A stretch of 64,000 nucleotides of DNA, taken from an uncultured Dehalococcoidia bacterium (GTDB lineage Bacteria > Chloroflexota > Dehalococcoidia > Lucifugimonadales > GCA-2712585). This document shows, piece by piece, positions 20,279-25,968 of the stretch (position 1 is its first letter; each line of letters opens with the position of its first letter). The notes under the pieces are model-generated. The model made no database searches. It saw only the letters and a program-made list of their open reading frames with translations, and was not told the origin of the DNA. The stretch spans positions 2,107,141 to 2,171,140 of the forward strand of contig OX638324.1 of NCBI GenBank assembly GCA_951812825.1, given 5' to 3'. Position numbers and translations under genes: made by a program.

Positions 20279-21817
20279 ATGGCCTCCTCCATCATCAGGA
20301 GCAAGCACGTAATTACTCGAGTGATCGACGACAACGCCAGCGAAATTGTCGACGACGGGGCCGTCTACCAGGAGGACGGCGCTATCGTCGAAGTGGGCAG
20401 GTTCGATGATCTGAAGGCGAAGTATTCGCCGGATGAGGTGGTGGGAGACGGTACGCATCTCGTCATACCGGGGCTGGTGAACGCCCATCATCACGTGGGG
20501 TTGACGCCCTTCCAGCTGGGAAGCCCGGACCTGGCGCTGGAGCCGTGGATTGTGGTGCGGACGATGAACCGGGACGTGGACAACTACCTGGACACGCTAT
20601 ACTGCGCCATTCAGATGATCGAGGCGGGCATTACCACGGTTATGCACAATCACGCCACCTGGCGGAAGACGGAAGGCGGCGGGTTCCATGAATCGGGCGC
20701 CCACGTAATGCAGGCGTACCAGGACGCGGGGATGCGGGTGGCTTTTTCCTTCTCGCACCGGGACCAGAACCGGGTGGCCTACGAGGACGATGACAAGTTC
20801 CTGGCCACGATACCCAAGGACCTGGCCGAGCGGATCAAGAATCGGCTGGTGGAGACCCAGATGTCCACTGAAGAGTACATCGCCCTATTCGAGGGGCTGA
20901 GCCGGGACTTTGGAGAAGATCCACGAATCCGGGTGTTTCTGAGTCCCGGGAACGTGCAGTGGTGCTCGGACGGGTTCTTGACGGCGGTGAAGGAGGCGGC
21001 AGGCCGGCATGGGACGGGGGTGCACATTCACCTGCAGGAGAGCTTCTACCAGAAGCTGTACGGCATGCGGACGTGGGGGAAGACGCCGCTGGCGCACCTG
21101 CGGGACCTGGGGTTTACGGGGCCGGAGGTCTCCTGCGCCCACGGGGTGTGGATCACGGACTCGGACATTCGGACGCTGGCGGAGACGGGGACGATGGTCT
21201 GCCATAACGCCAGCTCCAACCTTCGGCTGAAGAGCGGCATCGCGCCGCTGAATCCGATGCTGGCCAGTGGCGTGGGGGTGGCGCTGGGCATAGACGAGGC
21301 GGGGATCAACGACGACAACGACATGATCCAAGAGATGCGGCTGGTGCACAAGATTCACCGGGAGCCGGGGGTGTACAGTCCTGCGCCGACCTCACATCAG
21401 GTGCTGCGTTTGGCGACGGAGAATGGTGCAAGAGCGACTTTCTTTGGCGACGACGTGGGGACGCTGGAGGCGGGGAAGCGGGCCGACGCGGTGCTGGTGG
21501 ACATGAACCATATCAATGAGCCGTACCTTGACGCCGATGCAAACGTGGTGGACGCGCTGTTGTACCGGGGTCGGGGCGTGGACGTGGACACGGTGGTTGT
21601 GGACGGCGAGGTGCTGATGCAGGGGCGGCAGATGACGAGGGTTAACAAGAGCGAGGTGTGGCGGGCGTTAAAGGATTTTCTTTCCCGGGAGTTGAGCGAA
21701 GCTGAGCTGGAGAGGATTGAGGTGGCGCAGGAGCTGCTGCCCCACGTCAACAAGTTCTACGGCCAGTGGCATCTGGAACAGGGGGATTCCCACTACCAGT
21801 ACAATCAGAGGGTGTGA
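20279..21817 (+). CDS. Amidohydrolase, TrzA/chlorohydrolase-type
   Basis: A cytoplasmic metal-dependent hydrolase or deaminase of the superfamily that includes atrazine chlorohydrolase and 5-methylthioadenosine deaminase. Metal ligands: the HxH in LVNAHHHVG, a central His in GVHIHLQESF, His in SCAHGVWI, and Asp in LGIDEAGIND. The composite beta-sandwich is split between the N- and C-termini (VDDGAVYQEDGAIVEVG and AGKRADAVLVDM). The 512 residues are longer than most homologs because of a C-terminal extension of about 60 residues. The substrate is unknown. ATG 20279 follows AAAGGAG. A cupin-like gene follows 78 bases later. Confidence 0.87.
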   Translation: MASSIIRSKHVITRVIDDNASEIVDDGAVYQEDGAIVEVGRFDDLKAKYSPDEVVGDGTHLVIPGLVNAHHHVGLTPFQLGSPDLALEPWIVVRTMNRDVDNYLDTLYCAIQMIEAGITTVMHNHATWRKTEGGGFHESGAHVMQAYQDAGMRVAFSFSHRDQNRVAYEDDDKFLATIPKDLAERIKNRLVETQMSTEEYIALFEGLSRDFGEDPRIRVFLSPGNVQWCSDGFLTAVKEAAGRHGTGVHIHLQESFYQKLYGMRTWGKTPLAHLRDLGFTGPEVSCAHGVWITDSDIRTLAETGTMVCHNASSNLRLKSGIAPLNPMLASGVGVALGIDEAGINDDNDMIQEMRLVHKIHREPGVYSPAPTSHQVLRLATENGARATFFGDDVGTLEAGKRADAVLVDMNHINEPYLDADANVVDALLYRGRGVDVDTVVVDGEVLMQGRQMTRVNKSEVWRALKDFLSRELSEAELERIEVAQELLPHVNKFYGQWHLEQGDSHYQYNQRV

Positions 21818-21895
21818 TTTATTCCTTCAGGCGGCCAATTGGGTGATTGGTTGCGTCATGCTAGTTTGAGAACTAAGAGGGAGGTAAGGACAGCA

Positions 21896-22459
21896 ATGGG
21901 TTCTGAAGCAGTTACGTATTCGGTTGAGGACTTTGTGGGGTTTGTCAACAAGACTATCCAGAAGGTGGGGACGGGGCCGGAGGCGCTGGAGGCTATCGGC
22001 GCGAACCTGAGGCGGCTGGTGATGGAGGGAGGCGATCTTACCGCTCAGGGGGTGCCGGCGGAGAATCCGGGTGGGCTTACGGGGCGATGGCTCCATAAGG
22101 AGGAGGGAGGCGATTTCCAGCTTTCCGTGACGTATTTCCCGCCGGACGAGCCGACGCCGGTGCACAGTCACTATCGCTGGGGCGTGGAGTGCGTCATTCA
22201 CGGGGAGGAACGGTTCACGGTGTGGGAGCGGCAGGACGATGCCGACAAGCCGGGGCGCTCCCACCTGAATGTGGTGTCCGACGGAAAGATGACGCGGGGC
22301 GACGTGCGGGCCTGGTACGACCCGCCGAAGAACGTGCATCGCCAGTGGGCGCAGGGGGACAAGCCGGTCTGCCTGGCGCTGCTGATGGGCGGCGATGGCG
22401 CGCGGGAGCATATTTTTGACCTGGATAAGGGGACGTTTGAGGACGCAGTAGCGCGGTAG
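21896..22459 (+). CDS. Cupin-fold protein of unknown function
   Basis: 187 residues, probably cytoplasmic. A central TPVHSHYRWGVECVIHGEE resembles the first cupin motif of cysteine-dioxygenase-like proteins (His, His, then Glu/His on the next strand), and a later NVHRQWAQGDKPVCLALLMG provides the second motif. So a metal-dependent dioxygenase-like fold is likely, but no reaction can be assigned. ATG 21896 was chosen over an upstream frame because GGGAGGTAAGGA precedes it. It is probably co-transcribed with the amidohydrolase before it and may act on the same compound. Confidence 0.65.
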   Translation: MGSEAVTYSVEDFVGFVNKTIQKVGTGPEALEAIGANLRRLVMEGGDLTAQGVPAENPGGLTGRWLHKEEGGDFQLSVTYFPPDEPTPVHSHYRWGVECVIHGEERFTVWERQDDADKPGRSHLNVVSDGKMTRGDVRAWYDPPKNVHRQWAQGDKPVCLALLMGGDGAREHIFDLDKGTFEDAVAR

Positions 22460-22880: not shown

Positions 22881-24116
22881 ATGAACACTTATGCGCTTTG
22901 CAACGCCAACATTATCGATTGCACGAGCAGGGACCCGATTGTGGGGGGGACGCTTGTGGTGAGCGGCGGCCGGATTCAGGACGTGGGGGCGGCCAACAGC
23001 GTGTCGATTCCTCGTGACGCCCGGATGGTGGACGTGGGAGGCCGGACGGTGATGCCGGGGCTGATGGACGCTCACGCCCACATGGCGCTGCTGGAGGCGA
23101 GGATAGCCGAGTACGAGGACAAGCATCCCGGGGCGGTCTTCGCGTACTCGGTGGCGCGCAACATCGAAAATACGCTGATGCAGGGATACACGACGATCCG
23201 GGACACGGGCGGATGCGATTGGAGCTTCAAGGAGTCGGTGGACCGGGGGATGATTCCGGGGCCGCGGATGTTCGTGAGCAACGGGCCGATTTCGCAGACG
23301 GGGGGACACGGGGACCACCGGCTGCGACACGACCGTCGGAGCGAGCATCACGACCACCCGCTAATGGCAGGCTCGTCGATTGCGGACGGAGCGGACCAGG
23401 TTAGGTACGCGACGAGGTGGCAGCTGCGAACGGGGGCCGACCAGATAAAGATTATGGCGGGCGGCGGGGCAGCTTCGCCCACGGACGCGGTGGAGGACCC
23501 GCAGTACACGGTGGAGGAGCTGGCGGCGGCGGTGTACGAGGCGCGGGCAGTGCGGAAGTACGTTTGCGCCCACGTGTATGTTCCTGAGGGAATTATGAAC
23601 TGTGTGAAGGCAGGGGTTCGGTCGATTGAGCACGGGAACTTCATGGACGAAGAGTCGGCTTCGCTGATGAAGGAGAGCGACGTTTTTCTGGTGCCGACGC
23701 TGGCCATCTTCGAGATGTCGAGCAGGTACGGGCGGAAGAACGGAGCGCCGGAGTCGATGCTGCAGAAGATAAACGCCGTGCGGGACGTGGGGGCCCAGAG
23801 CCTGGAGATAGCGCAGTCCGTTGGGCTGAAGATCGGGTCCGGGTCGGACGTATTCGGGCCTTACGCGGAGGGCAGGGCGCTTTCGCTGGAGCTGCAGGCG
23901 GGGGTGCTCGGGCCGATGGAGAGCCTGATCTGCGCCACGCGCAACAACGCAGAGCTTTTCGGCATCGTCGACGAGGTGGGAACTCTGGAGGCGGGGAAGC
24001 TGGCGGACGTGATTATCGTGGACGGGGACCCGCTGGAAGACATTCGGATTCTGCAGGACCAGGATAATGTGAAGGTGGTGATGCAGTCCGGTCGGGTGGT
24101 GAAGGGGGAGTTGTAG
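22881..24116 (+). CDS. Amidohydrolase, imidazolonepropionase/Xaa-Pro dipeptidase-like
   Basis: A cytoplasmic binuclear metallohydrolase of 411 residues. Metal site: VMPGLMDAHAHMAL (HxH), the bridging-type Lys in QIKIMAGGG, His in VCAHVYVPEG and SIEHGNF, and the catalytic-type Asp in KIGSGSDVFG. This pattern matches amidohydrolases near prolidase, imidazolonepropionase and carboxypeptidase Sgx9260-type enzymes, which cleave acyl-peptides or similar amides. A His/Asp/Arg-rich loop (about residues 142-160, GGHGDHRLRHDRRSEHHDH) is notable. The start lies in an AT-rich stretch without a strong ribosome site. Confidence 0.85.
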   Translation: MNTYALCNANIIDCTSRDPIVGGTLVVSGGRIQDVGAANSVSIPRDARMVDVGGRTVMPGLMDAHAHMALLEARIAEYEDKHPGAVFAYSVARNIENTLMQGYTTIRDTGGCDWSFKESVDRGMIPGPRMFVSNGPISQTGGHGDHRLRHDRRSEHHDHPLMAGSSIADGADQVRYATRWQLRTGADQIKIMAGGGAASPTDAVEDPQYTVEELAAAVYEARAVRKYVCAHVYVPEGIMNCVKAGVRSIEHGNFMDEESASLMKESDVFLVPTLAIFEMSSRYGRKNGAPESMLQKINAVRDVGAQSLEIAQSVGLKIGSGSDVFGPYAEGRALSLELQAGVLGPMESLICATRNNAELFGIVDEVGTLEAGKLADVIIVDGDPLEDIRILQDQDNVKVVMQSGRVVKGEL

Positions 24117-24322: not shown

Positions 24323-25048
24323 TTAGAGGCCGCGGACCAGTTGGCCCTTTTGCCAGTCGTAGTCGACGTCGCCTTCGTAGAACCTGTCGGGGTTTTCGAC
24401 GGCCCAGATCTGCTTTCGGATGACGAAGTTGTCGGGCTCCAGCTCCACGCCTTTTCTCCAGAGGACGAGGGCCTTCTCCACCTGTCCGGCGTTGTACAGG
24501 GACAAGCCTTGGTCGAAGAGCCGGACGGCTTCGGAGTGGCTGCTTTCCGAATCGGTGACGTTGGCGTCCTTGGGGGAGTCCTGTTGAGGCGTTTCTCCGG
24601 TGGCGGCCCAGGTCGCGGCTATCTGCCTGTAATTGGACTTGATGATGTCAAAGCCGGAATACTTCAGGTAGCGAATGACGCCGTCTTCGTCGATGAAGAT
24701 GGCGTTGGGGATGGCCTTGAAGCCGAAGATGCGGCTGAGGAGGTTGTTGCGGTCTATGACAGTGGGGAAGGTGGCGCCGGCGTCTTCGACGAAGGGGCGG
24801 GCCTTGTCCGCGCCCTGGGCGTCGACGGCGACGGAGAGGATAACGACGTCTTTTCCGCCGTGCTCAGTGAAGAATTGCTGCCAGACCGGCAGCTGACCGC
24901 GGCATCCTCACCAGGAGGCCCACATGAAGACGATCACCTTCCTGCCCCTGTAGGAGGAGAGGGAGATGAGGTTGCCGTGGAGGGACGGCAGGGTGAAGTC
25001 CGGGGAGAGGTCGCCGACTTCGGGATAGCTGGGAGCGATGGTGGTCAT
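24323..25048 (-). CDS. TlpA/redoxin-like selenoprotein with C-terminal TPR-like tail (in-frame UGA = Sec47)
   Basis: A 241-residue thioredoxin-fold protein read through one UGA. The N-terminal half is a typical redoxin: VGDLSPDFTLPSLHGNLISL, then VIVFMWASW, then UGA (24908-24910), then GCRGQLPVWQQFF. The UGA stands exactly where the redox-active cysteine of the TlpA motif WASWC falls. The thioredoxin fold continues in the same frame with ILSVAVDAQG, cis-Pro-type GFKAIPNAIFIDEDG, and ends in a TPR-like repeat (SLYNAGQVEKALVLWRKG). A hairpin fitting a bacterial SECIS follows the UGA. No signal peptide. ATG 25048 with AAAGGAG. It follows the SMP-30 gene by 20 bases. A nonsense mutation is the alternative. 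Confidence 0.85.
24877..24910 (-). promoter_or_regulatory. Bacterial SECIS element at the UGA codon
   Basis: Reading the minus strand, UGA (24910-24908) is followed after 14 bases by GCTGCC (24893-24888), the loop GGTCT (24887-24883) and GGCAGC (24882-24877), a perfect 6-bp stem. The loop begins with G and carries GGUCU, as in the E. coli fdhF SECIS loop, and starts 20 bases after the UGA (18 in fdhF). This is where SelB would bind. Confidence 0.8.
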
Positions 25049-25068
25049 GGGTGTCTCCTTTGGTGGGG

Positions 25069-25968
25069 CTAGGGATGGCCGGGGAGGCCCGGCCGGTGGG
25101 TGCGCAGCAGATATACGGAGGTGCGGGCGGTGAAGAATAGGTCGCGGCGGTCGGGGCCGCCAAAGGCCAGATTGGCGGGCACCTCCTGGAGCTTGATTGT
25201 TCCGAGGTGGGAGCCGTCGGAGTCGAAAACCCAGCAGCCGCCGGCGCCGGTGCAGAAGATTTTGCCGTCCACGTCCACCTTCATGCCGTCGGGGACGCCG
25301 TCTTCGGCGGAGGACATGTCGGCGAAGATGCGGTTGTTGGTCAGGGAGCCGTCGGGCTGAACGTCGAAGGCGCGGATGTACTGGTGGGGGCAGACTTCGC
25401 TGCGTTCCTTCTCGTCGATGCAGGACTCGTCGAGGCGGCTGATGGCGACGTACATGGTCTTTTCGTCGGGGGAGAAGGCGAGGCCGTTGGGGTACTCGCA
25501 TTCGTCGGTAGCGACGGAGAGTGATCCGTCGTTGGCAATCATCATCACGCCGGCGAAGTCCAGTTCACGTTCTTGGGCGGGGAGCCTGCCCGCGGGGTCG
25601 GTGAAGTAGATTGTGCCGTCGGAGCGGCAGACAACGTCGTTGGGGCGGTTGATGCGCTTGCCATCGTAGCAGCTGGCGATGTCGGCCCATGTGCCGTCGT
25701 TCTGCTGGCGGGTGACGCGGCGGCGGCTGCCTTCGCACATAATCATGCGGCCATTAATGTCGAAGGTGGTGCCGTTGCCTTCGCCGGAGTCCGTGCGGAC
25801 TATCTGGGTGCCGGTGGCGCGGCTCCAACGCAGCTGGAGATCCCGGCGGATGTCCACGAAGTAGATGAAGCCGTCGGGGCCCCAGAGGGGGCCTTCGGTG
25901 AAGCGGAAGCCGGTGCAGGCCATCTCCGGGTAGGTGACTTCGAGGATGTGGGAGAGATCTTCGTTCAA
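25069..25968 (-). CDS. SMP-30/gluconolactonase family protein
   Basis: A six-bladed beta-propeller lactonase of 299 residues that hydrolyses sugar or other lactones with a divalent metal. Visible family features: FTEGPLWGPDGFIYFVDI at the start with the metal-binding Glu, RINRPNDVVCRSDGTIYFTDP in the middle, YPNGLAFSPDEKTMYVA, and VPDGMKVDVDGKIFCTGAGG with the metal Asp. TTG start at 25966-25968 is supported by AAGGAG nine bases before it. No signal peptide. The selenoprotein follows after 20 bases, so the pair is probably co-transcribed. Confidence 0.9.
   Translation of the reverse strand: MNEDLSHILEVTYPEMACTGFRFTEGPLWGPDGFIYFVDIRRDLQLRWSRATGTQIVRTDSGEGNGTTFDINGRMIMCEGSRRRVTRQQNDGTWADIASCYDGKRINRPNDVVCRSDGTIYFTDPAGRLPAQERELDFAGVMMIANDGSLSVATDECEYPNGLAFSPDEKTMYVAISRLDESCIDEKERSEVCPHQYIRAFDVQPDGSLTNNRIFADMSSAEDGVPDGMKVDVDGKIFCTGAGGCWVFDSDGSHLGTIKLQEVPANLAFGGPDRRDLFFTARTSVYLLRTHRPGLPGHP

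Follow-up and report, generated by a model that had tools for sequence, protein, structure and literature searches.

We found that a gene on the minus strand of the window, by which we mean the whole 64,000-nucleotide stretch of DNA that was analysed, very probably encodes a functional selenoprotein. In this reading, UGA codon 47 is decoded by SelB, tRNA-Sec and a hairpin, and the product would have a TlpA/ResA fold and would act, likely in the cytosol, as a thiol/selenol-disulfide oxidoreductase that forms a selenenylsulfide and binds a partner through its tail. The conservation of the Sec codon, the presence of the selenocysteine machinery, the covariation of the hairpin and the predicted fold are the shown or strongly supported parts of this reading. 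The features of the locus are the following.

24323..25048, minus strand: predicted selenoprotein gene, 241 codons plus TAA, with one in-frame UGA
25055..25058, minus strand: GGAG, a ribosome-binding site 6 nt ahead of the ATG, read from the sequence
24908..24910, minus strand: codon 47, a UGA interpreted as selenocysteine and shared by 95 of 97 distinct sequences
24902..24904, minus strand: UGC codon of Cys49, putative resolving cysteine of the Sec-x-Cys motif; invariant alignment column
24877..24893, minus strand: SECIS hairpin with a 6-bp stem and loop GGUCU (24887-24883), in which bases 24887 and 24884 form a covarying pair
24647..25018, minus strand: redoxin domain (AhpC-TSA/TlpA-like), residues 11-134, from Pfam and the predicted structure
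24335..24547, minus strand: TPR-like helical tail, residues 168-238, from the predicted structure; PDB matches below significance
25069..25968, minus strand: SMP-30/gluconolactonase-like gene, 20 nt upstream (Pfam SGL, 157 bits); link not conserved

An earlier note on this DNA had read 24323-25048 as a TlpA-like redoxin that encodes Sec, and this reading is supported by the machinery in the genome, by homologues that keep the UGA and by covariation in the hairpin. Its coordinates were correct, while the strand, which it left unstated, is the minus strand. The gene starts with ATG and runs from 25048 to 24323, and it contains, as had been claimed, a single in-frame UGA at 24908-24910 (context VFMWASW-UGA-GCRGQLPVWQQ), after which the same frame continues to give a protein of 241 residues. 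Standard gene callers would stop the redoxin at residue 46 or start it late, and it is easily dropped from the annotation of uncultured marine Chloroflexota or mis-annotated as a truncated gene.

The short form of this gene, with UGA at the same site, was present in 60 of 250 genomes of the same order (about a quarter), a count that includes two decayed copies and two contig fragments. In a wider set composed of the order and named genome records, 97 distinct sequences carried UGA in 95 cases, TGC in one and TGT in one, and the UGA was fixed at one site down to approximately 30% protein identity. The named records were Chloroflexota, Dehalococcoidia and SAR202 MAGs, followed by Nitrospinota, Latescibacterota, Planctomycetota, Poribacteria, Acidobacteria and others; this spread across phyla rests on record labels, and MAG labels can be wrong. 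The earlier note had suggested checking whether UGA alternates with UGC or UGU among homologues. What we observed is that the UGA is kept and that its rare replacements, TGC or TGT, are solely Cys codons, as is expected at the Sec site of a bacterial selenoprotein. Unusually, members of the redoxin family normally carry Sec, and Cys forms are the exception. The sole Cys form of the order (L101, WGSW-TGC-GCRNQLP) belongs to genome G245, which is 97% complete; it has lost one of the hairpin pairs (CTC), and no selA, selB, selD or tRNA-Sec match was found in this genome at the thresholds used. A Cys (TGT) version, L204, lies on contig CAMCWI010000045.1 of a MAG labelled Akkermansia muciniphila, a label that is probably wrong.

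The gene might instead be supposed to be a pseudogene of a Cys-type TlpA protein, with the UGA arising from an inactivating mutation or from faulty sequencing, and some copies of the family have indeed decayed: L106 (G066:C74) has extra TGA and TAA codons and a Tyr replacing the resolving Cys, and L077 (G154:C39), a decayed copy or an assembly error, has one in-frame TAA approximately 81 codons past the UGA. However, this explanation is at odds with the position of the UGA, which 95 of the 97 distinct sequences, from several phyla, share, and with the remaining frame, which is open and conserved up to the last residues. Judged by this conservation, the explanation is refuted unless many MAGs acquired errors at this codon independently, and we assign it next to no probability. 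A second alternative is readthrough without selenium, through a suppressor tRNA or a genome-wide reassignment of UGA, for example to Trp. The genomes are MAGs of uncultured bacteria, in which Sec insertion itself is deduced from sequence, and this leaves such a reading some room. Against it, the redoxin genes of four relatives (L069, L093, L095 and L098) also terminate in TGA, which excludes a general reassignment in those four and means that UGA stands for both Sec and stop within one gene. In addition, the replacements among the 97 distinct sequences are Cys and never Trp, and both the joint presence of tRNA-Sec, SelA, SelB and SelD and the covarying hairpin behind the UGA are further points against readthrough of this kind, which we consider very improbable.

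The source genome (one contig of 2.47 Mb) contains all four components for which the earlier note had proposed a search, namely a tRNA-Sec with anticodon UCA (75.7 bits) and matches to SelB (349.7 bits), SelA (550 bits) and SelD (375 bits), which is the machinery expected for a bacterial selenoprotein. The SelD of this genome (L048, G000:C1:1058509-1059423) itself carries a Sec UGA in the context NCAG-U-ASKF, and a Sec UGA was present in all 30 SelD loci that were read, its own and those of relatives (L048, L217-L245). Because selA was found in 201 of 250 genomes of the order, the use of Sec looks routine in this clade; for the same reason, the association of selA with the UGA-bearing redoxin is weak evidence when taken alone. 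In the order, selA was found in 54 of the 60 genomes with the UGA form, and the six without a selA match are all incomplete MAGs, with selB in all six and tRNA-Sec in three.

Directly behind the UGA is the hairpin GCUGCC-GGUCU-GGCAGC, a perfect 6-bp stem that starts 14 nt after the codon, exactly as had been described. On its own, a perfect hairpin is modest evidence, since 33 of the 1670 TGA of the window (2%) have one in that range. Furthermore, its arms overlap the well conserved QLPVWQ codons, so part of the conservation of the hairpin is protein constraint, and four of the six stem pairs are dictated by the conserved amino acids. Where the stem is free to vary, the first base of Leu covaries with the third base of Gln (CTG..CAG or TTG..CAA), and across the loop the third base of Pro covaries with the third base of Val (or Gly), as in CCG-GTC, CCC-GTG, CCT-GTA and CCA-GTT. 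For the seven hairpin pairs that were counted, 94.1% of cells pair compared with 79.6 +/- 1.0 in shuffles, and the double-changed cells number 65 compared with 21.4 +/- 3.8. In a tree built from 101 sequences, approximately 21 independent double changes between standard pairs were counted at the loop pair and 7 at the L1 x Q3 stem pair, compared with 0-5 for each of nine control column pairs. Only some members retain the outermost pair (columns 18 x 34).

Folding energy alone is a poor test for a SECIS element: behind the UGA of the window gene, it was no lower than in synonymous permutations (z +0.18), and for the family the effect was weakly significant (mean z of -0.45 in 62 homologues vs. 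-0.06 in control windows, Wilcoxon P 0.0015). A search of Rfam over the UGA and hairpin site returned no relevant RNA family at E up to 5. The bSECIS model expects a G as the first or second loop base, and the conserved hairpin has one there, as is usual for a bacterial selenoprotein. From the alignment, the family loop appears to be N-G[U/G]-N'-U, in which N pairs with N' and GU or GG is left at the tip. The hairpin and its covariation also occur in the long paralogues L111-L118, where GAC/GAT replaces CAG/CAA at the base of the stem. We also considered this four-base loop pattern as a general rule of the clade and rejected it, as the loops of the SelD hairpins differ from those of the redoxin family and mostly carry GUG or GGC at the tip.

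An AlphaFold2 model computed with 53 family members was confident (mean pLDDT 92.9, pTM 0.89), and its residues 8-153 matched ResA and DsbE-like structures with Z of 18-19.8 and a best rmsd of 2.0 over 140 residues, giving a predicted thioredoxin fold of the TlpA/ResA type. This confident prediction agrees with the claim that the UGA takes the position of the redox-active Cys of the TlpA motif and that the thioredoxin fold resumes behind it. The site itself differs from the CxxC of TlpA/ResA oxidoreductases in being Sec-x-Cys, one residue shorter. Its description as Sec-Gly-Cys holds for the window protein (UGC) but not as a family motif, which is UxC and often not UGC; the residue between Sec and Cys in 97 sequences is G in 48, A in 33 and V/N/M/S/D/T/K in 16. 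The invariant positions near the site are W43, S45, W46, position 47, C49, R50, Q52, L53, P54, W56 and Q57, and those in the tail are W215, P220 and F223. The C-terminal tail, which the earlier note had called TPR-like, is helical, and Pfam TPR_2 matches 33 of 45 members at E up to 0.01, but the window protein stays under Pfam's own cut-off; comparison of the tail with PDB structures gave only matches below significance. Inspection of the window protein by eye revealed no evident signal peptide, and it therefore probably acts in the cytosol.

On this basis, we propose that the ribosome would insert Sec at UGA 47 with the help of SelB, tRNA-Sec and the hairpin that immediately follows the codon. 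Sec47, which occupies the position of the cysteine that attacks in CxxC proteins, would have the same role, and Cys49, two residues on, would resolve. The fold and the motif suggest that the protein is most likely a thiol/selenol-disulfide oxidoreductase cycling through a selenenylsulfide, with a TPR-like tail that probably binds a partner or client protein.

The main rival for the activity is a selenoprotein that works as a peroxiredoxin-like peroxidase and not as a disulfide oxidoreductase, which would agree with AhpC-TSA as the best Pfam match of the window protein (75 bits), with peroxiredoxins such as AhpE and Bcp among the fold matches and with the name Prx-like given to the family in a 2008 survey. 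However, the PxxxTxxC motif of typical peroxiredoxins is missing, which counts against a peroxidase; the site reads VFMWASWUGCR with W43, S45 and W46 invariant, the WASWUxCR motif, its spacing and the cis-proline region are as in TlpA/ResA, and ResA and DsbE structures rank first among the fold matches. We thus regard a peroxidase as unlikely. CnoX/YbbN are proposed to hold oxidised clients and to reduce or protect them. A comparable role, with oxidised clients held by the TPR tail and reduced or protected by the Sec site, would suit a cytosolic redoxin with a TPR-like tail, and structural comparison of the tail did return CnoX-GroEL and YbbN as weak matches. However, these matches do not reach significance (Foldseek E 0.7-0.9), other TPR proteins rank higher and the redoxin domain is TlpA-like, which together make a chaperedoxin-like role decidedly unlikely. 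As a speculation that we hold with low confidence, the whole branch, which occurs in SAR202-type Chloroflexota, Poribacteria and further phyla and hardly ever with Cys, may be a cytosolic Sec-x-Cys redoxin that uses its TPR-like tail to bind clients and serves as a selenium-dependent chaperedoxin-like or partner-specific reductase, with a SECIS loop consisting of an N-G[U/G]-N' turn closed by a compensated true base pair.

For the preferred reading, a thiol/selenol-disulfide oxidoreductase, the gene neighbours at approximately 54 loci gave no conserved clue to a substrate or partner. The gap of 20 nt to the SMP-30 gene was confirmed in the window, but this adjacency, to which the earlier note had drawn attention, is not conserved in relatives: a conserved operon was rejected, with approximately 620 nt between the two genes in the congener L054, and no SMP-30 match was found near the redoxin gene in the other relatives sampled. 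No other neighbour of the redoxin recurred in more than 11 of the approximately 54 loci. Amidohydrolase genes at 20279-22459 and 22881-24116 on the plus strand, with a cupin-like ORF after the first, adjoin the redoxin gene; they are also near it in the nearest relatives (L053-L055) and not beyond.

In SelB-SECIS structures, the flanking loop bases of the E. coli fdhF element pair too. The comparison of the window hairpin with fdhF made in the earlier note holds for the window gene, in which the hairpin likewise lies just behind the UGA with the loop GGUCU, but not as a rule of the family, in which GGUCU is one of several loops. The redoxin hairpin also differs from fdhF in having no bulged U in its 5' arm and in a family loop that varies as N-G[U/G]-N'-U with an N:N' pair. 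U17, G23 and U24 are among the bases needed in the fdhF SECIS, G23 and U24 being loop bases (PMC8659212). The paired loop bases of the redoxin family offer a clear evolutionary means of telling which bases of the SECIS are required by SelB.

The kind of protein described here is already known to selenoprotein specialists and is not a new kind of selenoprotein. Zhang and Gladyshev (2008) reported 46 selenoprotein sequences of a 'Prx-like (UGC-containing)' family in their Global Ocean Sampling survey (PMC2398784), a later review lists the family as UGC-containing Prx-like (PMC9312934), and a 2026 review names it 'UGC-containing TlpA disulfide reductase family protein' (PMC13188914). Judged by domain and motif, with MDE0950781.1 and MBL6689828.1 as the published reference sequences, the window protein resembles this family in its AhpC-TSA/TlpA domain with Sec in a UGC motif at the redox site. 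Both are bacterial, the literature family having been found in water metagenomes. That family is defined by domain and motif alone, whereas approximately half of the family described here has a residue other than G between Sec and Cys. Our literature search found no paper naming WAxxUGC and none joining SAR202 with selenoproteins.

The redoxin domain and Sec site are also homologous to those of NCBIfam NF041054 WAxxUGC_long (ResA-like WAxxUGC motif-containing protein), to which residues 15-125 of the window protein align (best stretch, model positions 84-194 of 354). At 163.1 bits against a curated cut-off of 300, however, the window protein falls outside NF041054, and of three long homologues tested, L111 (317.9 bits) and L117 (313.6 bits) pass while the third scores 272.6. 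Unlike the window protein, the true members among the relatives have approximately 370-380 aa and an N-terminal extension. The long paralogues L111-L118, of this length and related to NF041054, carry the motif WA[ST]WUGCRxDLPxWQ. Genome G172 holds one short and one long form, and the two forms are therefore paralogues. No plasmid relatives of the short branch were found, the best matches being ordinary TlpA proteins over half of the query. With the ResA, TlpA and DsbE thiol-disulfide oxidoreductases, the window protein shares the fold and the position of the redox motif, but those enzymes have CxxC and work outside the cytoplasm, whereas the protein described here has Sec-x-Cys, no evident signal and a TPR-like tail; in 137 of 149 loci, Gln stands, as judged by motif, at the place of ResA Glu80. 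By its sequence, the window gene would represent a short, TPR-tailed branch without an NCBIfam equivalog or name of its own, and the points of some interest are that this branch combines near-exclusive Sec with a TPR-like tail and that the pair in its SECIS loop is visible in evolution.
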